In this document: positions 2,686 to 28,313 of the stretch, piece after piece | Position numbering within the stretch: position 1 is the stretch's first letter | Layout of the letters: every line of letters starts with the position of its first letter | Source: Leclercia sp. 29361 | GTDB taxonomy: Bacteria; Pseudomonadota; Gammaproteobacteria; Enterobacterales; Enterobacteriaceae | Assembly: GCF_011290365.1 (NCBI RefSeq) | Contig: NZ_CP049786.1 | Coordinates: forward strand, 2,232,001-2,296,000 | Direction of reading: 5' to 3' | DNA length: 64,000 nt | Notes under the pieces: generated by a model | What the model saw: only the letters and a program-made list of their open reading frames with translations | The model's database searches: none | What the model was told of the DNA's origin: nothing | Program-made: the position numbers and the translations under genes

Positions 2686-3702
2686 TTACGCCTTCTCGAT
2701 TTGCACCAGATTGGTGTGTTGTGGGTTGCCCTTCGCCAGCGGCGACGGACGGTGCGTGGTCAGGGTGTTCATGCAGGCGCCGTGGTCAACGCGGTCGCCC
2801 TGCATATCTGCCTGATGCCACGCCCCCTGGCCCATGGCGCTGACCCCCGGCATGATCCGCGGCGTGACTTTGGCGGCAATGCGCACTTCGCCCCGGGTAT
2901 TAAAGACCCGCACCATGTCGCCGTTTTGGATGCCGCGCGCCCGGGCATCCACCGGGTTGAGCCACACTTCCTGGCGGCAGGCGGCCTGCAGCACGTCCAC
3001 GTTGCCGTAGCTGGAGTGGGTGCGGGCTTTATAGTGAAAGCCGAACAGCTGGAGTGGGAACTGGCCGCGATCGTCCGAGTCCCAGCCTTCGAAGGTGGAG
3101 GCATACACCGGCAGCGGGCTGATGGTTTCATCCGCCTGCAGCTCCCAGGTGCGGGCGATCTCTGCCAGCCGACTGGAGTAGATCTCGATTTTGCCCGACG
3201 GGGTTTTCAGCGGGTTGGCCTCAGGATCGTCGCGGAATTTCTTGTAGGCCACAAAGTGACCGTTGGGATCTTTTCGCTTATAGATGCCCATCTCTTTGAG
3301 CGCCTCGTAAGAGGGGAGCTGCGGATCTTTCGCCACCATTTTGGCGTACAGATACTGCAACCACTCCTCCTGAGTACGGCCTTCGGTAAAGCGCTGATGG
3401 ATATCTGGCCCGAGGCGTTTCGCCACTTCGCTCATGATCCAGTAGATAGGTTTACGTTCGAATTTTGGCGCGGTCACCGGCTGGAGGAAAATTAGGTAGC
3501 CCATATTCCCGGCATAATCGTTGGGAATAATGTCCTCCTGCTCGACGGTCATCAGATCGGGCAGCAGCAGGTCGGCATATTTCGCCGACGAGGTCATGAA
3601 GTTGTCGATTACCACGATCATTTCGCACTTACTCTCGTCCTGCAGAATGTCGTGGGTTTTGTTGATGTCCGAGTGCTGGTTGATGATGGTGTTGCCGGCG
3701 TA
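2686..3702 (-). pseudogene. ynfF: ynfF 3' fragment (codons 475-812), separated from its 5' part by the element
   Basis: The fragment encodes the C-terminal 338 residues of a DmsA/YnfF-type molybdopterin oxidoreductase, from YAGNTIINQHSDIN to the usual end SPLAKGNPQHTNLVQIEKA. It includes the molydopterin-dinucleotide-binding domain (PLQLFGFHYKARTHSSYGN and APRIMPG-like region). It has no start of its own: the open frame runs on to 3852, but those 50 codons are element sequence antisense to the integrase. Joined at the IWN codons to the 5' part (10451-11872) it gives an uninterrupted 812-codon gene, against 814 residues for E. coli DmsA. The gene is therefore split by insertion and is not decayed. 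Confidence 0.95.
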
Positions 3703-3712
3703 GTTCCAGATG
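3702..3712 (+). repeat. attL core repeat
   Basis: AGTTCCAGATG, identical to 10450-10460. On the minus strand it encodes the IWN codons of the reductase. The identity continues as ACT after one mismatch. Sequence to the left is reductase; sequence to the right is element. Confidence 0.88.
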
Positions 3713-3777
3713 GACTCCACTGTCAGACGGATGGACGGACTTGAAGTAGTTGACTCAACGCTACTTAAGGTCCTGAT

Positions 3778-5364
3778 ATGACTGACATTAACCATGACAA
3801 TACTGTATATCCATCCAGTTCTTTCTCTGGGTCTCCCTATCTGTATCAGCAAGTCTACACCTCAAGTCCTGACACAAGGCTGACACAAATCAACCTATTG
3901 GCTACGCCTCAGTTAGTCCGTAGAGCCAATGGTCGATATACTATCCGCTTCAGACTCAAGGGACAGACCATCCCGTTTCTTTCAGTATCGACCCGCAGCA
4001 CAGACAGGAGAGTAGCCACAATGCGTCAGAGAGAGCTTGCAGCCACAGCTAAGACCTTCATGTTGGATAGGCCTGAAGTCTCACTACAGGAGCTTACAGA
4101 GCATCTCCGGTCTATGGCTGAGCAGTTTCTGACAGACGCTAGTGACGATTACTGGAATGGACTTGAGGTCGCTACTCTGGTCGACGAGAAGTCCAACCTG
4201 AGGGAGCTAGCCGCTACGCAAGCCTTGAGTCTGGACCAGCAGAAGGGCATAAGGTTAGCGCTTGAAGTCCTGACCGCAGCACAGCAGAGGGTAGACACTG
4301 GTGATACCTCTGGCCTGATTGATATTGTGATGAATAACCCTACGGATTACTCAACTATATGCGACTCTATGGCAATTCTGAGTAACGAGCAGGGAGTCAG
4401 CCCAGAAGTATTCACGCAGGAGCGCCAACCTGAGGTCGCTATCTGTAGTTTTTCTGAGCTTGTGTCCTCACTGCTGGCTGAGAAGGTTCAGACCTTGAAG
4501 ACATCCAGCTACAAGGACCTCTCGTCCTCACTGAATACCGTCTCCCGGTTCCTTACTTCTGGCATGGACCTGATGTCCCGCTCTGAGTGGCTGGCAGTGA
4601 GGGACGCTATGCTGTCTGCTGAGGTGAGACCATCGACGATTAACAAGCTACTGACCAAGGCGAAGATGTGTCTGGACTATGGCCTGATGAATGGGCAACT
4701 TGAGGGCCGCAACCCGATTGAGCGCATGAAGTTAACTAAGGATGTAGACTCCAAGCGTAGAGCATTCACTGACGAGGAGCTGGAGAGACTTCTTGTCCGG
4801 GTAGAGGCTGAGTATCAGTTCACGCGACACACCGCTCACACGACCTCTGAGGCTCGCAGATGGGCGACTCTGGTATCTGTGGTCACTGGAGCTAGGTCTG
4901 CTGAGGTCTGCCACCTGATTAAACGTGACATTGTAACCTTGGACAATGGACTGGTCTGTATCGACATTAATGAAGATGGGGACGGGAAGTCCGTAAAGAA
5001 CAAGCATTCAGTCCGACTTGTACCGCTGACCGATGGCGCTTATGGGTTTGACCTGACGTCCTTCCTGTCGTGGGTAGACGCTCAGCCTGATGATGGTCCT
5101 CTCTTCGGGATGACACCGAGCGCCTACTCTAGCTGGTTTAACTCTCGGGTCCTGACTGAGGCCCTGCCAGACGCCGATAACGTCTCGCTTCATAGTCTGA
5201 GGCATTGGCTGGCGACCCGTATGAAAGAGCGTGGTGTCAATCTGGTGGACGCTCAGGGCATCTTAGGTCATAGCTCGCAGTCAATCACTTACGACCTGTA
5301 CGGGAAGGGGCACGCGGTAGGACGTCTGGCTGATGCGCTAAATCTGGCACTGGTAGGGATGTGA
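3778..5364 (+). CDS. int: Tyrosine recombinase (integrase) of the satellite
   Basis: 528 residues, of the phage integrase family. It performs site-specific insertion and excision. A long N-terminal region (about 1-320) holds arm-binding and SAM-like core-binding segments. The catalytic domain shows Arg373 in VVTGARSAEV, Lys409 in KNKHSVRLVPL, His472 and Arg475 in HSLRHWLATR, His498 in LGHSS, and the nucleophile Tyr508 in TYDLYGKG. The gene starts 66 bp inside attL and reads inward, as usual for integrases beside their att site. It is longer than most phage integrases (about 330-420). Its GC content and its heavy use of GTC/GAC words differ from the chromosome. Two candidate arm sites fall in its first 115 bp, so the integrase could bind its own 5' coding region. 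Confidence 0.95.
   Translation: MTDINHDNTVYPSSSFSGSPYLYQQVYTSSPDTRLTQINLLATPQLVRRANGRYTIRFRLKGQTIPFLSVSTRSTDRRVATMRQRELAATAKTFMLDRPEVSLQELTEHLRSMAEQFLTDASDDYWNGLEVATLVDEKSNLRELAATQALSLDQQKGIRLALEVLTAAQQRVDTGDTSGLIDIVMNNPTDYSTICDSMAILSNEQGVSPEVFTQERQPEVAICSFSELVSSLLAEKVQTLKTSSYKDLSSSLNTVSRFLTSGMDLMSRSEWLAVRDAMLSAEVRPSTINKLLTKAKMCLDYGLMNGQLEGRNPIERMKLTKDVDSKRRAFTDEELERLLVRVEAEYQFTRHTAHTTSEARRWATLVSVVTGARSAEVCHLIKRDIVTLDNGLVCIDINEDGDGKSVKNKHSVRLVPLTDGAYGFDLTSFLSWVDAQPDDGPLFGMTPSAYSSWFNSRVLTEALPDADNVSLHSLRHWLATRMKERGVNLVDAQGILGHSSQSITYDLYGKGHAVGRLADALNLALVGM
3870..3890 (+). promoter_or_regulatory. Candidate integrase arm-type sites, left end
   Basis: Two direct copies of TGACACAAR at 3870 and 3881, 11 bp apart, inside the 5' part of int. 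The same word occurs twice near the right end (10363, 10386). Repeats of one short word near both ends, outside the core, are typical of integrase arm sites. The role is inferred. Confidence 0.45.
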
Positions 5365-5377
5365 GTGGAGAATCGTA

Positions 5378-5986
5378 ATGGTTAAAGAGTTTAAAGTCCG
5401 TAAAGAAAATAAGCCGTCATATGAATGTATGATTACTGCTGAAACCTGTTTGGGGTTAGCAGGTCTGGCGACCGAGGAGTGGGAGCGTGAGCACCATTAT
5501 CGTACAGGTATCATATTCACTGCCTTTGCTATTGAGGCTATGTTCATCTTCTATAGAAAACAGGTTGACCCCGGTTACGATAAGACGAAACCAGAGTGCA
5601 GAAAGACAATGCACAAGAAAACGTTAAAATTGTGCGGCTTTACTAATTATATGGGGACAAAACCTTATCAAATTATCAAAGAGTGTCTTGAGGTAAGAGA
5701 TGCAATTGCTCACGGCGATTCGTACACTTCCAGCTATAATTTCTCAGCGGATCATTTGGATAACCAAGACGATATTGCAAGAGGTGTCTTGGCGGTAAAC
5801 TCCGAACAATTCCGGGGATTAACTGCCGACCTCCTTAAGAAATACATTGAGATGGCAAAGCATATTGACCATGAGATTTATGATAACGGTTACAGGCCTT
5901 CTGAAGAGGACCTTCCGGCAGCCGAGCGTAGAAACCTGATGTTAGCTTTCGGGGTCAGTGGGGTGTCAATGTGGCCTAGCGTCTGA
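5378..5986 (+). CDS. HEPN-type protein, likely antiviral cargo of the satellite
   Basis: 202 residues, mostly helical. The segment EVRDAIAHG contains Arg107-x4-His112, the RNase signature (R-x4-6-H) of HEPN domains found in toxins and abortive-infection proteins. A polar/aromatic helix before it (AIEAMFIFYRKQ) fits the HEPN fold. It starts 13 bp after int with a GGAG box, so it may be co-transcribed with it. Its sequence is clearly more AT-rich than int and the capsid genes, and it holds one of the only two GATC sites in the element, both signs of separate acquisition. This position, between integrase and the phage-responsive module, is a typical cargo spot in satellites. Exact family and target are not recognised; the RNase activity is a prediction. 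Confidence 0.65.
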   Translation: MVKEFKVRKENKPSYECMITAETCLGLAGLATEEWEREHHYRTGIIFTAFAIEAMFIFYRKQVDPGYDKTKPECRKTMHKKTLKLCGFTNYMGTKPYQIIKECLEVRDAIAHGDSYTSSYNFSADHLDNQDDIARGVLAVNSEQFRGLTADLLKKYIEMAKHIDHEIYDNGYRPSEEDLPAAERRNLMLAFGVSGVSMWPSV

Positions 5987-6076
5987 ACGTAGGGGCTTAA
6001 CTAGCATTTTAAGGATAGATATGGTTCTGCGAAATATTATAATTGATATAGTTTACAAGGGTTACAATTAGCGGGC

Positions 6077-6099
6077 ATTATACCTTCACTATAGGGAAG
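6077..6099 (+). promoter_or_regulatory. T7-type phage RNA polymerase promoter, copy 1
   Basis: ATTATACCTTCACTATA followed by GGGAAG; predicted +1 at 6094. The block TCACTATAGGGA equals the melting and start region of T7 class III promoters, while the upstream recognition part differs, as it does between T7, T3, SP6 and gh-1 polymerases. No host sigma-70 gene uses this form. Confidence 0.75.
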
Positions 6100-6102
6100 G
6101 GG

Positions 6103-6125
6103 ACTAAACTATCACTATAGGGGAC
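6103..6125 (+). promoter_or_regulatory. T7-type phage RNA polymerase promoter, copy 2
   Basis: ACTAAACTATCACTATA followed by GGGGAC; predicted +1 at 6120. It shares TCACTATAGGG with copies 1 and 3 and lies 26 bp after copy 1. Its upstream part is the most divergent of the three. The initial RNA would begin with a small GGGG-A-CCCC hairpin. Confidence 0.65.
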
Positions 6126-6158
6126 CCCTAGCCCTCGACCCATACACACATTCATTTA

Positions 6159-6234
6159 GTCTCAGGCTTCCGGTAGCGGACCGATTGGAAACCATCCGCA
6201 GACGCCTAGTGTTAAATCACCTTGCGCCTGAGAC
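6159..6234 (+). ncRNA. Candidate structured RNA after T7-like promoter 2
   Basis: GTCTCAGGC (6159-6167) pairs perfectly with GCCTGAGAC (6226-6234) and closes a 76 nt domain. The domain contains a second stem, GCGGA (6175) with TCCGC (6195). It begins 39 nt after the predicted +1 of promoter copy 2 and overlaps no gene. No known RNA family is recognised. Confidence 0.4.
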
Positions 6235-6388
6235 CATTCTCTTTAACGTAGGTTATCTTCCCTTTTGACAGGCGGGGAGCAGAAGACCGCATCCGACTTT
6301 AAGTTGGCTCTGCGATAATCGCTGCGCGGATAACTGAAGAACCAAGACATCATTGCTGAGGTCTGCCATCCATTGAGGACAGGCGGAA

Positions 6389-6434
6389 ACTCAAAGAGGT
6401 TAGACCAGTGGTGTCTGAGGTTTGGGCTTTGAGT
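6389..6434 (+). ncRNA. Second stem-loop in the satellite control region
   Basis: ACTCAAAG (6389-6396) and CTTTGAGT (6427-6434) form an 8 bp perfect stem with a 30 nt loop. It lies between promoters 2 and 3 in non-coding sequence. Function unknown. Confidence 0.3.
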
Positions 6435-6548
6435 CCTGACCAGCAGGCTGGAGGAGACCATGAGTTTATCTTGTTATGGATTGTGTTATCACAATTCCCA
6501 TAAGAAGAACTTTAAGTCCAGCCAGCCAAAGTAAACATGGTCGCAAAT

Positions 6549-6571
6549 CTTATACCCTCACTATAGGGACC
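6549..6571 (+). promoter_or_regulatory. T7-type phage RNA polymerase promoter, copy 3
   Basis: CTTATACCCTCACTATA followed by GGGACC; predicted +1 at 6566. It matches copy 1 at TTATACC-TCACTATAGGGA, so the two define a candidate consensus. CCCTCACTA also recalls the T3 promoter. It reads toward the KilA-N and capsid genes. Confidence 0.75.
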
Positions 6572-6576
6572 ATGCA

Positions 6577-6613
6577 TTCCGCCTCCGGTCTTGATGCGTC
6601 AAGTTATGCGGAA
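6577..6613 (+). ncRNA. Nested hairpin directly after T7-like promoter 3
   Basis: TTCCGC (6577-6582) pairs with GCGGAA (6608-6613). Inside it, CTTGA (6590-6594) pairs with TCAAG (6599-6603) around a TGCG loop. It starts 11 nt after the predicted +1, so it would form the 5' end of the helper-driven transcript. It could stabilise or process the RNA or act as a decoy; none of this is shown. Confidence 0.35.
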
Positions 6614-6888
6614 GCTCTCCCGACATTAAGTCTTTCTCAGAAGACATCCCAAGGCAAGACAGCCTCTGTCAGACCTCCTGTATCGACCTCCAGCTCGTTA
6701 GCGTTCTTCAGTCATCTCATTGGCTTAAGTCTATCACCGCTCACCATCTGGGGTCCTTACAGCTCGTCCTGACATGCGGTCTCACCTTTATATGTACATG
6801 TAGAGACACCGGGTCACTCCAGACACCAGATGCAAAACTTTGCAACCGAACGGAAAACTTTCCTACCGTCTGGTAGTGGACTTGACGC

Positions 6889-7016
6889 GCTCAAAACTGA
6901 GCTGGTTGGCGAGGAAGTCTCCCTCCGAGTGGAGGACCAAAGACGCTAAGCGATTCTCTACCGTCCCGCAAAAAATGCGGGCCGTGAAGACAGGGCGTTA
7001 CCGCTCAAAACTGAGC
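6889..7016 (+). repeat. Two copies of GCTCAAAACTGAGC plus a GC hairpin
   Basis: The 14-mer occurs at 6889-6902 and 7003-7016; each copy is itself an inverted repeat (GCTCA/TGAGC). Between them, CCCGCA-AAAAA-TGCGGG (6965-6981) forms another hairpin. They bracket the decayed KilA-N segment and may be binding sites or scars of a small duplication. Confidence 0.55.
6900..7015 (+). pseudogene. Degenerate partial copy of the KilA-N gene
   Basis: In frame, codons here read KSPSEWRTKDAKRFST, clearly related to KAPSEWKTKEARRFAA of the intact KilA-N protein at 7181-7744, and the next residues stay weakly similar. No start codon with a ribosome binding site exists. The frame then runs into a CAC/CAT repeat that would give a histidine run and into unrelated sequence. 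I read this as the remnant of a tandem duplication of the middle of the KilA-N domain. Confidence 0.55.
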
Positions 7017-7180
7017 AGTCACCACCACCACCACCATCATCTCTGGTCTTCACACGACCTCATCATCACCTCAAGTCTTTCTGTATGTCTCCTGTTGCCT
7101 GTGAGTCTCCCTATCGTTGGGGGCTTGAGTAGGCTCTCAGGGTGTGACTTCAGGAGGCATAACAAAAGGAGTACAACGAT

Positions 7181-7744
7181 ATGTCAAACCTTAACGCTAA
7201 CCACATCATCTACATCGACGGTCAACCATTCAAAGCGAATGAGGACGGGATGTGGAACCTGACCGAAATCTGGAAGACCCTGAAGCTACCGAGGGGTAAG
7301 GCCCCTTCCGAGTGGAAGACCAAAGAGGCGAGACGATTTGCAGCCACTCCGGTAAAATTGCGGAGTGAGCGGGTCGGCTCTACACAGCACATCTTCTCTA
7401 ATAAGCAAGTTACGCTCCGGTACGCTGGATGGGTGTCTTATGACTTTGAGGATATGGTCTACGCTGCCTTTGAGTCCATTCTGGCGATGCCTGAAGTCCA
7501 GACCGTTGTCGTCAACAAGATGGTGGAGCTGGGCTATCACGCCGAAGCTGAGCTACTGGAGCGACACTCTAACGCTGACCGAGACTACGCCCATCACCAG
7601 ATGTCTACCCTGTTTAGTAAAGCGGACGGACGCAAGCCTGAGCGCCTGTATAAGGCTGTCAAAGCTGGTCACGTGACCAAGGATAAGGCCTTGAGTCTGC
7701 TCCCCGCAGGTAGCGCCTGGGCTGCACGAGTGGAGGGACTCTAA
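7181..7744 (+). CDS. KilA-N domain protein
   Basis: 187 residues. An N-terminal KilA-N domain is supported by IYIDGQPF (10-17), DGMWNLTEIWK (22-32), APSEWKTKEARRF (41-53) and the later LRYAGWVSYDFEDMVYAAF. In phages these domains bind DNA and often sit in regulators or antirepressors. The C-terminal part (about 110-187) is helical and unassigned. It has an AAGGAG box 9 nt before the ATG and is the first full gene downstream of the T7-like promoters, so it is probably expressed when a helper polymerase is present. The next gene begins 1 nt after its stop. It may control the element or interfere with the helper; the sequence does not say which. Confidence 0.72.
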   Translation: MSNLNANHIIYIDGQPFKANEDGMWNLTEIWKTLKLPRGKAPSEWKTKEARRFAATPVKLRSERVGSTQHIFSNKQVTLRYAGWVSYDFEDMVYAAFESILAMPEVQTVVVNKMVELGYHAEAELLERHSNADRDYAHHQMSTLFSKADGRKPERLYKAVKAGHVTKDKALSLLPAGSAWAARVEGL

Positions 7745-7745
7745 G

Positions 7746-7949
7746 ATGATGATTGACCCTCGTACACCTATTGGCAAAGCGACCCTTCGTTACCGTGGTC
7801 TTCCCACTCGTCACCTCCTGTCCCTGCTGAGACTTGGAGTCGCTGACTCTGAGCGCCCGTACTACAGTCGAGACGAACTTATAGCGATGCTGGTCGACCG
7901 TGATTTGAATAATCAGTTACGTCGGGCGTTCGCCAAACTAGAGTCTTAA
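7746..7949 (+). CDS. Small satellite protein, unknown function
   Basis: 67 residues, basic, not recognised. It starts 1 nt after the stop of the KilA-N gene, which suggests translational coupling. The C-terminal half (YYSRDELIAMLVDRDLNNQLRRAFAKLES) resembles a short helical SAP- or HeH-like DNA-binding segment, but this is only an impression. Codon use matches the neighbouring element genes, supporting a real gene. Confidence 0.55.
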   Translation: MMIDPRTPIGKATLRYRGLPTRHLLSLLRLGVADSERPYYSRDELIAMLVDRDLNNQLRRAFAKLES

Positions 7950-7991
7950 CCTTATGGGGCAGAAAAGACCGCCGCATAAACCTATCGTCTG

Positions 7992-8192
7992 ATGACCGCT
8001 CCGGAAATCTCCGGACCGCCCGTAGTGAGCTGGAGTCTTGAGTGGAAATTCCCACGCAAGGTCTTTGACCATACCAAACCTAATTTAAAACCTTTTGAGA
8101 TGACCGATGCGGGGAGACCCGTAGGCATAACTGTGTCTGCGGTACCGATAGTCTCAACTCTCAAGAGGAGTAATTACTATGTTATTCAATAA
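7992..8192 (+). CDS. Possible small protein between the KilA-N and scaffold-like genes
   Basis: 66 codons that start in a TGATG overlap with a 12-codon frame (from 7953) and end 14 bp inside the next gene. No clear ribosome binding site precedes it. The DNA contains two adjacent TCCGGA palindromes near its start. The 230 bp gap is otherwise empty, so it may be a regulatory spacer and not a gene. Confidence 0.25.
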   Translation: MTAPEISGPPVVSWSLEWKFPRKVFDHTKPNLKPFEMTDAGRPVGITVSAVPIVSTLKRSNYYVIQ

Positions 8193-8670
8193 CCAAGACT
8201 GGAAACTGTCAGTCACCGACATCAATCTCTATGAAAATACTGTGAGTCTGGACGGTCAGTCCTATCCGCTGTCGCTCGCTATCAAGACCCTCATTCCGGG
8301 CTACCTGTCAGGCCTGCCGTCTACCAGCCGTGAGTCTATGGAGTTACTGGAAGCTCTGGCTGAAGCTGGCGTAGCTATTGGTAACTTCTTCAGTAATGAC
8401 CTGATGATCGCCTACCAACGTCGCCAGCAGAACAAGCGAGCCGAGGCTGAGCGTATCGCTAAAGAGCAGCGCATTCAGGCTGAGCGTATGCGTGAAGAGA
8501 ACATGACCGATGCAGAGTGGCAGAAAGAGCTACAGCGCCGCGAACAGGTCAAAGCTGAACGCCGGACCTATGGTGAGAACCTGCGCAGTGCTACCCATTC
8601 CGCTGGTCGCTCCCGTGCCGCTATCGTCGCTGACATTGAGTCAGGCGGTAACTGGATGGACAGCCTCTAA
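8179..8670 (+). CDS. Coiled-coil protein, scaffold-like
   Basis: 163 residues. Residues 1-75 are mixed. Residues about 78-130 form a long charged helix rich in Arg, Glu, Gln and Lys (YQRRQQNKRAEAERIAKEQ onward), then a short C-terminal tail (SGGNWMDSL). An AGAGGAG box precedes the ATG. It sits directly before the capsid-like gene, the place where T7-like and many other phages keep the scaffolding protein, and its helical, charged make-up fits that role. No direct family match is recognised. A capsid-size or decoration factor is an alternative. Confidence 0.5.
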   Translation: MLFNNQDWKLSVTDINLYENTVSLDGQSYPLSLAIKTLIPGYLSGLPSTSRESMELLEALAEAGVAIGNFFSNDLMIAYQRRQQNKRAEAERIAKEQRIQAERMREENMTDAEWQKELQRREQVKAERRTYGENLRSATHSAGRSRAAIVADIESGGNWMDSL

Positions 8671-8744
8671 GACAGACACACAAGTGGTCCTGACCTGATG
8701 TCGGGACCCACAGTATCTAAAACTAATTTAGGAGATTGATTATT

Positions 8745-9734
8745 ATGACCATGATTAAAGATAGCTATCAGTTCGGCATTGAGCCAGTACGTATCACCGA
8801 CACCGACAACATTCAGGTTAACGAAGGTCTGCCAACTAACGCTGACCCACAGGTCTATGCCCTCCAGTTAGCTAAGACGGTTAAGGCTATGCTGAACGGT
8901 GTACTTAAAGACGCTCAGGATAACATTCCGTTCCCTGTAGAAGTCCTGCCTACCCGCAATAGCCTGCCTACCCCAATCATCGCCCACACTCTGTCTGACC
9001 GCTCTGTGGTCGTCCCTGTACGCGGTGGTGAGCGACCTGAAGTCGTGACCGTTCCGTCTGGTCAGGAGATTGTCGTCGAACCTATCGAACAGGCAATCCT
9101 CATCTCGGAGCAAACTAAACTGTGGGACGCCAAGTCCTCCACTGGTTTCACTCATGGCACACTCCAGCAGGACGCTATGAACATCTGTGAGAATGTGGTC
9201 CGTACCATCAACGCTCGCATGGTTGACGTTCTGGAGTCCTCCAAGCTGCTGAAGACCGTAGAGCTGCCAGTCCTGACTGGAAGCCTGACCACTAAGGCAG
9301 ACGCTATCATGGACGCTCTGTTTGAGAACACCGAGTCCTCTTTCGGCTCTGAAGTGTCTGATTACGGCATCATCGCCCATGAGTCCCAACTGAAAGCGCT
9401 GTCCCGTCTGGCTGCTAAACAGGGCTTCTCTGGTGAAGACGCTATCGTGGATATGCTGGGTACCGACATCGCGTATTACAACGGTGAGGACAAAGGTGTG
9501 TTCATGCTGGCTAAACGCTTCACGGCCCTGAGCTTCGGCTGCTTCCGTCACGACGGTGAGAATATTACGGTCGTCCTTTCACGTGATGGCGACTCTCAGT
9601 CCCACGACTTGGAAATCCTCGGTAAAGTGTTCGTTGTCGCTGAAGCTGCTACGACCATCAAGATGGGCACTGGCTCAGCTACTGCCGTCCTGCCTGTAGT
9701 CAAACGCCTGAAGTTCACCAAGACCGAAGCGTAA
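8745..9734 (+). CDS. Major capsid-like protein
   Basis: 329 residues. The layout resembles HK97-fold coat proteins: an N-terminal arm, a strand-rich region (IIAHTLSDRSVVVPVRGGER, VPSGQEIVVEPIEQAI), a long helix with DAMNICENVVRTINARMVDVL, a central domain (ADAIMDALFENT to DYGIIAHESQLKALSRL), and a C-terminal beta region ending with KVFVVAEAATTIKMGTGSA. The start at 8745 is favoured by a GGAG box 10 nt upstream; an earlier TTG at 8736 is less likely. Codon use is strongly biased, as in a highly expressed gene. The element has no terminase or portal, so the shell would be completed with helper parts. Assignment rests on pattern and context, not on a recognised homologue. Confidence 0.55.
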   Translation: MTMIKDSYQFGIEPVRITDTDNIQVNEGLPTNADPQVYALQLAKTVKAMLNGVLKDAQDNIPFPVEVLPTRNSLPTPIIAHTLSDRSVVVPVRGGERPEVVTVPSGQEIVVEPIEQAILISEQTKLWDAKSSTGFTHGTLQQDAMNICENVVRTINARMVDVLESSKLLKTVELPVLTGSLTTKADAIMDALFENTESSFGSEVSDYGIIAHESQLKALSRLAAKQGFSGEDAIVDMLGTDIAYYNGEDKGVFMLAKRFTALSFGCFRHDGENITVVLSRDGDSQSHDLEILGKVFVVAEAATTIKMGTGSATAVLPVVKRLKFTKTEA

Positions 9735-9739
9735 GACCA

Positions 9740-9979
9740 ATGGGTAAGAGCATTAGTAAAGGCTTCAGGTCCATCGCCAAGGGCCTGACAGGTGGTGGTG
9801 GGACTCAAGGTGGGGCTTCGGTCCCGCCTCCTGTAGCTCCTCCTGTAGCTCCTCCAGATGACGCTCAGCAAGCTGTAGTCGATACCCAAGGTCAGGAGAC
9901 CGAGGGAGGTAAGACCATGAGCAGGGGTAAGTCTGGACTGAATATCAGCAGGACTTCAGGTGGTGGCCTGTCACTGTGA
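9740..9979 (+). CDS. Small Gly/Pro-rich phage-type structural protein
   Basis: 79 residues: a basic N-terminus (MGKSISKGFRSIAKGL), a glycine stretch, a proline-valine-alanine repeat (PPPVAPPVAPP, about 29-39), an acidic middle and a C-terminus ending SRTSGGGLSL. Small proteins of this kind follow capsid or head-tail genes in many podophages. It begins 5 nt after the capsid-like gene. Function unknown; a virion or head-completion role is an inference. Confidence 0.5.
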   Translation: MGKSISKGFRSIAKGLTGGGGTQGGASVPPPVAPPVAPPDDAQQAVVDTQGQETEGGKTMSRGKSGLNISRTSGGGLSL

Positions 9980-10054
9980 TTAACTAACTACGGTCTGGAC
10001 TAATGGTCTGGGCCTTATTACTGGTATGGTAGTATACAGGCGAAGGAGGAGCCA

Positions 10055-10210
10055 ATGTCTATGACTTCCGCAGACCTAAGGTCCCTCCTGACTCTGGTCT
10101 ATAAACTCGTGTTCCTCTCTGTGGGCCTCTATATGGTCCTCTCCGGTCGACTCGGTGTAAATGTATTCGACACTCTGTCTAAGGCTGTGGGTGGGCTTCT
10201 GGGGGCTTAG
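10055..10210 (+). CDS. 51-residue single-pass membrane protein, holin-like size
   Basis: The ATG at 10055 follows a strong AAGGAGGAG box. The protein has one hydrophobic helix at about residues 11-31 (LLTLVYKLVFLSVGLYMVLS), a short polar N-terminus and an amphipathic C-terminus ending VGGLLGA. It is the last gene of the capsid module. The size and topology suit a small phage holin or a superinfection/interference peptide. No homologue is recognised, so the role stays open. Confidence 0.5.
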   Translation: MSMTSADLRSLLTLVYKLVFLSVGLYMVLSGRLGVNVFDTLSKAVGGLLGA

Positions 10211-10449
10211 GTTTGGACTCACAGTGGGACCGATGGTTTCTGACAGAAAAATGTGAATGACCATCTAATACATTAAGCCAGCAGACTTCCCCCCATAGCC
10301 CGCCTCAAGTCCAGACCGAGGCCACCGGGGGTCCTGACCAGCCGTCTAGACATCCCGTCTAATGACACAAGTCTGGCACAAAGAATGACACAAGGTCTTG
10401 ACTCAATGCAGGACCTCAGGCCTACTAAGGGTCCGCTTCAAGTCCTTGA
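10211..10449. other. Right end of the satellite, no gene
   Basis: No open frame with a start signal is visible. It contains TGACACAAG repeats (10363, 10386), a related TGGCACAAAG (10375) and TTGACTCAA (10398), a word also present near the left end (3750). It is probably the right attachment arm. Confidence 0.6.
10361..10394 (+). promoter_or_regulatory. Candidate integrase arm-type sites, right end
   Basis: AATGACACAAG at 10361-10371 and again at 10384-10394, 23 bp apart (about two helical turns), with TGGCACAAAG between. The word matches the left-end pair at 3870 and 3881. Confidence 0.45.
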
Positions 10450-10460
10450 AGTTCCAGATG
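10450..10460 (+). repeat. attR core repeat
   Basis: AGTTCCAGATG, the second copy of the core at 3702-3712. To its right the sequence is the reductase gene again. It marks the right boundary of the element. Confidence 0.88.
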
Positions 10461-21131: not shown

Positions 21132-21155
21132 CATGCCGCCGTTTCCGGCGGCATG
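21132..21155 (+). terminator. Hairpin after ydfI
   Basis: CATGCCGCCG-TTTC-CGGCGGCATG, a perfect 10 bp stem 9 bp after the stop, without a clear T-run. Confidence 0.55.
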
Positions 21156-27897: not shown

Positions 27898-28313
27898 AAA
27901 TGACCCTGTTGTTTGTATAATTCGAAAAAATGATGACATGATTAATGAACGCTACATATTAGACCAGTCGAGTGGGAGTTTATTAAGTAGCCAATGGCTA
28001 AAAATTATATGTAATCCCTTTGACATAATCGCAACTTCGGGAACATCTTCTGGCCACGGATGATGGCATGGCAAATGCACTGTATAATTAATCCTAAGGA
28101 TAATCCTAAAGGCACTCTGTTCTTCCACCTCCATACCCGTGCCCTGAACAAACTCTCTACATTGTACGTCACCAGCAAGGCACTGGTGGCGAGGGCATGC
28201 CTGGCCGTTATGAGCGAGGGGAAGTCATACGCTCCATGAGAATTACTCTTTGAAAACGCTGACAAATTATTGTATTTAATATGGACAACAAACTATGCAT
28301 AATAAAGGACGAT
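27898..28313. other. About 415 bp without a supported gene
   Basis: AT-rich, with short frames on both strands only. It holds the bor promoter and the promoter of the next lipoprotein gene. I see no RNA gene or repeat. Confidence 0.5.

Follow-up and report, generated by a model that had tools for sequence, protein, structure and literature searches.

Here we describe an integrated element that probably parasitises T7-like phages (Kayfunavirus and related phages) in the manner of a satellite. The element, about 6.8 kb long, occupies positions 3702-10460 of a 64,000-nucleotide stretch of Leclercia sp. 29361 (contig NZ_CP049786.1, positions 2,232,001 to 2,296,000), referred to below as the window, where it lies inside a bacterial ynfE-type gene. 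It belongs to a mobile, conserved family of integrated elements that carry sequences matching T7-class promoters of several specificities and a gene for a shell protein predicted to have the HK97 fold. From the sequence and a structural model, the likely arrangement is that the single-subunit RNA polymerase of the helper would express the late module of the element, whose own HK97-type shell would be combined with the portal, tail and terminase of the helper. An earlier note, made from the letters of this DNA alone, had proposed a satellite of a T7-like phage. The promoters, the predicted shell and the T7-like virion parts support that proposal, with the correction that the closest promoter donors are Kayfunavirus phages and not T7 itself. 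To our knowledge this would be the first satellite switched by the polymerase of its own helper. The earlier note knew no described family with this set of genes, and the open-access PubMed Central (PMC) literature likewise yielded no satellite with T7-class promoters or of T7-like phages; a prior description elsewhere is possible, preprints and most subscription papers lying outside the search.

Integration is demonstrated by terminal repeats and empty sites. The 11-bp duplication of the attachment (att) core that had been noticed earlier is exact at both ends (Table 1), and a query of the two host flanks joined in silico found the host gene uninterrupted in 37 of the 39 congeners. The two remaining congeners are G766, with another such element at the same site (shell protein 70 % identical to that of the window), and G757, matched via a paralogue only. 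The split host gene is of the dimethyl sulfoxide/selenate-reductase type and is positioned between ynfF and ynfD in E. coli records, neighbours from which we take it to be ynfE. The left host flank gave no megablast match in the E. coli collection.

Three T7-class promoters, two of type A and one of type B, lie within the element. Kayfunavirus SH4, vB_EcoP_F (below, F) and IMM-002 have promoters of type B (AACTATCACTATAGGG), Kayfunavirus GW1 those of type A (ACCCTCACTATAGGGA). The promoter that precedes the major capsid gene in SH4 (21134-21155) and F (27956-27977) is matched letter for letter at 6101-6122, and a GW1 promoter (9187-9209) at 6545-6567. With up to 3 mismatches allowed, 100 shuffles of the window contained a mean of 0.00 such promoters. 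The T7-type promoters of the earlier note are present, in the number it gave, but they are of more than one specificity. Short-word blastn (E <= 0.01) of the window element against T7, SH4, F and GW1 returned only promoter matches, of 19-23 bp; matches to phages in this search are listed for 7 of 13 copies (copies of the element are designated by L numbers). Two weak non-promoter matches of 19-23 bp between L033 and F and T7 (E 0.006) were taken as chance.

The promoters recur throughout the family. Scored with a matrix built from phage promoters (cut-off at least 14 bits), all 22 element copies scanned, a set that omits the partial copies L017, L018 and L019, have 2-5 sites, against a background of one hit per 833 kb in shuffles of 12 copies and none in 52 kb of host flank. 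The 22 copies are not independent, since L001 and L013 are 96 % alike by 12-mers. Types A and B both reach at least 20 bits in 13 of the 22, where the two lie next to each other at a distance of 23-35 bp. The type A site of L009 and L010 is borderline (20.1 bits) and includes the type C 16-mer, two type C sites (AACCCACACTATAGGG) are found in L032, and the two sites of L031 are intermediate between C and A. Eleven exact copies of the type C 16-mer occur in one 39,883-base contig matching Escherichia phage SRT7. For type D, carried by L033, no T7-size helper emerged, IMG/VR giving one contig only, of 313 kb. A strict CACTATAG pattern missed L003, L006 and L020, where start boxes are altered; in L020 this affects both sites of the A/B pair. 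Altered start boxes occur in L003 and L020 and at single sites in L006, L008, L012, L034, L015 and L119, with an intact recognition box and a melting/start box that departs from TATAG, e.g. CACAGTAGG, CACCTTAGG and CACTATCGG. Such sites may represent promoters of reduced strength, decoys for the polymerase, or matches to helpers that have yet to be sampled.

Across 392 Enterobacteriaceae genomes the type B 16-mer is present in six, in five of them inside the element, and a reversed control pattern in two. The sixth occurrence (L120:6339, G246:C18) falls within a near-palindrome, CCCCTATA...TATAGGGG, that resembles a repressor operator, and the G246 DNA around it gave no match to element proteins better than E 0.25. 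Of the IMG/VR contigs with this 16-mer, 14 of 18 are 39-41 kb long, i.e. T7-size.

Helper polymerases differ along with the promoters. When five phage RNA polymerases are aligned, T7 has N748/R756 in the specificity loop; at these positions the three type B phages have N/N, and GW1 has D/R. Residue 748 reads promoter positions -11/-10 and residue 756 reads -9, D748 being T3-like, roles that agree with the ACCCT of type A and with the A that type B has at -9. Because loops and promoter types vary together, the polymerases answering to the stacked promoters are expected to be largely orthogonal.

The second pillar of the satellite reading is the shell protein. The capsid-like gene of the earlier note encodes a protein whose AlphaFold model, built from a 33-sequence alignment, has the HK97 (phage-capsid) fold and matches capsids and encapsulins in Foldseek; a previous run with 11 close sequences gave a mean local confidence (pLDDT) of 35. 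No useful match to Pfam, PHROG or PDB sequences accompanies this fold. The best hits of a PDB profile search were unrelated enzymes (E 0.47), a profile comparison with T7 gp10 (hhalign) gave a probability of 0.3 %, and pairwise BLASTP with gp10 gave nothing. The gene is under purifying selection, with a low ratio of nonsynonymous to synonymous substitution rates (dN/dS). Just upstream, the gene of the 163-aa protein is also conserved (dN/dS 0.08-0.37 in 7 comparisons); scaffold, as it had been called, is a candidate role suggested by its position. Its homologue in L005 is named DUF6971 in RefSeq, and in L033 a 172-aa open reading frame (ORF) with PF22318 occupies its place. Identification of the 163-aa protein as T7 gp14 or gp9 was not retained (Pfam E 0.047, pairwise matches at noise level). 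A database protein, P0023, looks like a fusion of a KilA-N start with the C-terminal part of the shell protein and is perhaps a deletion product.

Further ties to T7-like phages come from virion proteins and from the composition of the DNA. The gp7.3 regions of four Kayfunavirus genomes share 39-42 % identity with the 79-aa protein. The earlier note listed small membrane-protein genes; of the small proteins the 51-aa one is hydrophobic, but the 79-aa one is gp7.3-like and not a membrane protein. The gp7.3-like protein was detected in the window, L001, L002, L003 (part), L005-L008, L013, L017 and L019. The 12.5-kb copy L033, whose shell protein (P0033) is named Lonsdalea populi, has a gp16-type ejection protein (L033:4897-8878, minus strand) in two overlapping frames of 907 and 423 aa, 43 % and 40 % identical to T7 gp16. 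The window element contains 2 GATC (31 expected) and 1 CCWGG (17 expected), and 13 element copies contain 0-4 GATC (19-38 expected) and 0-5 CCWGG (7-30 expected). T7, SH4, F and GW1 have lost the same words and host DNA has them in excess, a pattern that fits DNA long shaped in a T7-like cycle, though it is not unique to T7-like phages. Primase sites were considered and set aside: GTC is in excess (350 against 255), and so it is in Kayfunavirus genomes, but the counts for GGTC and longer sites come close to expectation. The T7 pause motif, ATCTGTT, is absent from the four elements checked; its absence is uninformative, since GW1 also lacks it.

The family is widespread. The shell gene is present in 308 of 5,426 complete E. 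coli genomes (about 6 %; 301 over at least 80 % of its length), the ynfE-type integrase in 150 of them and the tRNA-Gly-type integrase in 254 (156 over at least 80 % of its length). The earlier note had asked whether the module recurs at other att sites, and had named homologues confined to complete prophages as the observation that would speak against it. The opposite was found. None of 50,697 phage records encodes the shell protein, one of 72,556 plasmid records does, and both IMG/VR loci that have it are copies integrated next to ynfE. The module recurs as a unit, in most cases 6.2-6.8 kb long, at ynfE and at tRNA-Gly(CCC), with a different integrase for each of these two att sites. Longer copies carry insertion sequences (IS) or, in the case of L033, reach the length given above. 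Repeats of 17-23 bp mark 9 of 11 copies tested at or near tRNA-Gly (L014 has none and L031 only 12 bp), and the tRNA-Gly itself is present in 10 of the 11 stretches (absent from L031). Relatives were found in Leclercia, Buttiauxella, Enterobacter and Citrobacter, in 9 of 392 Enterobacteriaceae genomes with the genome studied here counted, and more distant ones in records named Lonsdalea, Yersinia, Serratia, Pectobacterium and Klebsiella. An order-wide search gave 2 of 394 genomes and a search of relatives 3 of 79, figures that include the query's own or already-known ones. The shell of L002 (at ynfE) is closest to that of L016 (at tRNA-Gly), at 95.4 %; because near shell relatives occur across both sites, modules have probably been exchanged between the two integrases. 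The copy L012 (Enterobacter hormaechei pEh5_2, NZ_CP126871) lies near lysS, idi and actS on a plasmid-labelled record, neighbours of chromosomal type that point either to a wrongly labelled contig or to a piece of chromosome on the plasmid.

The integrase gene comes first, followed by the variable cargo, the T7-class promoters with their leader of about 1 kb, and then the KilA-N, 67-aa, 163-aa, shell, gp7.3-like and 51-aa genes (Table 1). The integrase of the earlier note is confirmed by Pfam, and its KilA-N gene by PHROG, the Pfam match being weak. As that note also stated, terminase, portal, tail, replicase and RNA polymerase have no match among the 8 element ORFs in Pfam and PHROG searches. 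Sigma70-like promoters are no more frequent than chance (7 against 5.4 expected). In the leader GCTCAAAACTGAGC, a short hairpin-like repeat, is found twice (6889-6902 and 7003-7016), and the two copies flank a stretch that resembles part of the KilA-N gene (tblastn 52 % over 27 aa, 6915-6995). The 51-aa protein is present in most ynfE-site copies, with none in L020 and L119.

Table 1. Features of the element in the window, with the PD-T7-4 genes of two related copies
Feature	Position	Strand	Evidence or remark
attL core AGTTCCAGATG	3702..3712	+	within ynfE-type host gene; exact 11-bp repeat; site empty in congeners
Tyrosine integrase, 528 aa	3778..5364	+	Pfam PF00589 E 9.7e-13; PHROG 1 E 5.1e-40
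Variable cargo slot, here 202-aa HEPN-like protein	5378..5986	+	weak PF18735 E 0.096, below Pfam cut-off
T7-class promoter type A (Kayfunavirus GW1-like)	6079..6097	+	24.4 bits
T7-class promoter type B (Kayfunavirus SH4/vB_EcoP_F-like)	6105..6123	+	31.4 bits
T7-class promoter type A	6551..6569	+	33.5 bits
Leader, about 1 kb	6124..7180	+	no gene annotated in this stretch of the RefSeq copies viewed; Rfam gives no match
KilA-N-type DNA-binding regulator, 187 aa	7181..7744	+	PHROG 129 E 1.4e-8; weak PF04383 E 0.006, below cut-off
Conserved 67-aa protein	7746..7949	+	found by tblastn in every full copy examined but L033
163-aa protein, scaffold candidate by position	8179..8670	+	upstream of shell gene in full copies
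HK97-fold shell (capsid) protein, 329 aa (predicted fold)	8745..9734	+	AlphaFold/Foldseek fold match
gp7.3-like virion assembly/host-range protein, 79 aa	9740..9979	+	PHROG 1320 E 1.8e-11; 40 % identity to phage vB_EcoP_F gp7.3
51-aa hydrophobic protein	10055..10210	+	mean hydropathy 2.09, best 19 residues
attR core AGTTCCAGATG	10450..10460	+	exact 11-bp repeat of attL core
PD-T7-4	L010:5813-6472; L011:5755-6414		overlaps integrase gene; tRNA-Gly copies

The cargo gene, between integrase and promoters, differs among copies (L014-L016 are outside this survey). It is HEPN-like in the window, L001, L002, L012, L013, L034 and L119, HNH in L003 and L006, and unnamed in L005 and L008; none is annotated in L007. 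The HEPN assignment of the earlier note stays weak by Pfam, and an R-x4-H motif, which we take to be the HEPN one, can be read in the protein. PADLOC identified the anti-phage gene PD-T7-4 as the cargo of L010 (E 1.3e-102) and L011 (E 3.4e-101); L009 has the same protein accession as L010, and L031 the N-terminal part of PD-T7-4. The HEPN-like cargo and PD-T7-4 are unrelated by BLASTP. PD-T7-4 is found in 180 of 5,426 E. coli genomes. It comes from a study of E. coli genes selected for phage defence, T7 being among the phages used, whose authors describe it as often overlapping an integrase; the accessible part of that paper contains no description of an element around the gene (PMC9519451).

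We infer from these features the following cycle, in which the helper would express, replicate and package the element and the particle would combine satellite shell with helper tail. The element would reside silently in ynfE or tRNA-Gly, placed there by its own integrase. An infecting T7-like phage would bring an RNA polymerase that recognises the promoter sequences, which are identical to phage promoters over the stretches given above; because types A and B are stacked, either polymerase specificity could switch the element on. Excision would follow, and then copying, presumably by the replisome of the helper, as the element encodes no replicase. The shell protein, perhaps aided by the 163-aa scaffold candidate, would assemble on the helper portal, and helper terminase and tail would finish a particle to which the satellite supplies its gp7.3-like protein. 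Delivery and reintegration would carry along the variable cargo, sometimes the anti-T7 gene PD-T7-4, which may serve in the cycle. We lean, with less assurance than for the satellite reading as a whole, towards a more specific version: a family wired to the helper polymerase, with promoters of two specificities as a two-key lock opened by either helper group, an own HK97 shell fitted to helper portal and tail, and anti-T7 cargo such as PD-T7-4. If the satellite reading is true, the promoter sequence would predict which phages can use the satellite, the place in which the anti-T7 gene PD-T7-4 often resides would be explained, and a capsid-only parasite would become available for studying how a foreign shell docks on the T7 portal. 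T7 is among the best-studied phages, and the element is a common candidate satellite of T7-like phages in E. coli.

Several observations weigh against this picture. The altered start boxes described above affect several copies. Of the 14 IMG/VR contigs with the type A 16-mer only 2 are 39-41 kb long, and these contain 5 of its 18 copies, so that this word does not single out T7-size genomes. Confidence in the shell model is moderate (pLDDT 63; TM-scores mostly 0.3-0.5), and the modelled protein could act otherwise than as a container. The gp7.3-like protein is undetected in every tRNA-Gly copy and in L020 and L119 at ynfE. P4, for which we know of no link to T7, is also poor in GATC and CCWGG, though less so (14 against 41 and 9 against 21 expected). 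No packaging signal common to the element and its helpers was found.

Some of these points would suit the main rival, an improbable one in our estimate, in which the element is a chromosomal defence island, unpackaged and rarely moving, that uses phage-type promoters as an infection alarm, the phage polymerase turning on an HK97-fold decoy that poisons helper head assembly. Altered start boxes would suit polymerase decoys, and the anti-T7 cargo PD-T7-4 of tRNA-Gly copies and the failure to find a packaging signal speak for it as well. However, the integrase, the precise att sites and the spread over many genera indicate that the element does move, and gp7.3-like and gp16-type virion proteins make better sense in a particle than in a poison. 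Slightly less probable still is a satellite that, like the PICMIs, travels as a concatemer in helper heads of full size and uses the HK97-fold protein otherwise, e.g. to interfere with helper heads. A head of 39-40 kb would take about 5.8 copies of 6.75 kb, and PICMI115 (6,110 bases), whose helper is virulent, is described as being packaged in concatemers of 8 copies (PMC10803314, in part); but if helper heads were used unchanged, one would not expect the HK97-fold shell gene to be conserved and under purifying selection, nor to follow directly on a scaffold candidate. That the element is a decayed remnant of an integrated T7-like phage, as broken copies might suggest (an IS inside the shell gene of L005, an interrupted integrase in L012, split reading frames in L013), is very unlikely given a layout conserved across many genera, low dN/dS and a capsid missing from all 50,697 phage records searched.

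Integrated, without a full virion set and recurring as a unit, the element has the general features of a satellite. It shares integration in E. coli with P4-like satellites, which also carry defence cargo, but P4 (NC_001609) encodes alpha primase, Sid, Psu and delta, none of which is matched in the element by Pfam or PHROG. T7-like phages (Autographiviridae) have their own RNA polymerase, replisome, terminase and tail, whereas the element has no match to these in the same searches. The anti-phage system PD-T7-4 is carried by the tRNA-Gly branch of the family. The temperate phage vB_EcoP_Kapi1 is presumably not T7-like. An E. coli PICI is mobilised by this phage according to the accessible part of one paper. 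The minimalist Vibrio satellites termed PICMIs resemble the element in being integrated, about 6 kb long and, as satellites, dependent on virulent phages, but they integrate next to fis, not at a ynfE-type gene or tRNA-Gly, and, as far as the accessible part of PMC10803314 describes them, are packaged as concatemers in helper heads and have no capsid function, while a shell gene of predicted HK97 fold is present in the element. Mulch and Flayer of Streptomyces likewise carry encapsidation genes, lack key replication genes and parasitise virulent phages; they differ in possessing terminase and portal and in their hosts, and the term 'RNA polymerase' does not occur in the main text of the paper (PMC10690885). 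Closest in having a capsid gene of their own, of HK97 fold as predicted here, are the cf-PICIs, which according to the same source encode capsid, protease, portal, connectors and both terminase subunits. Of that set the element has only the shell, the other members being unmatched among the 8 ORFs by Pfam and PHROG, and it has T7-class promoters besides.

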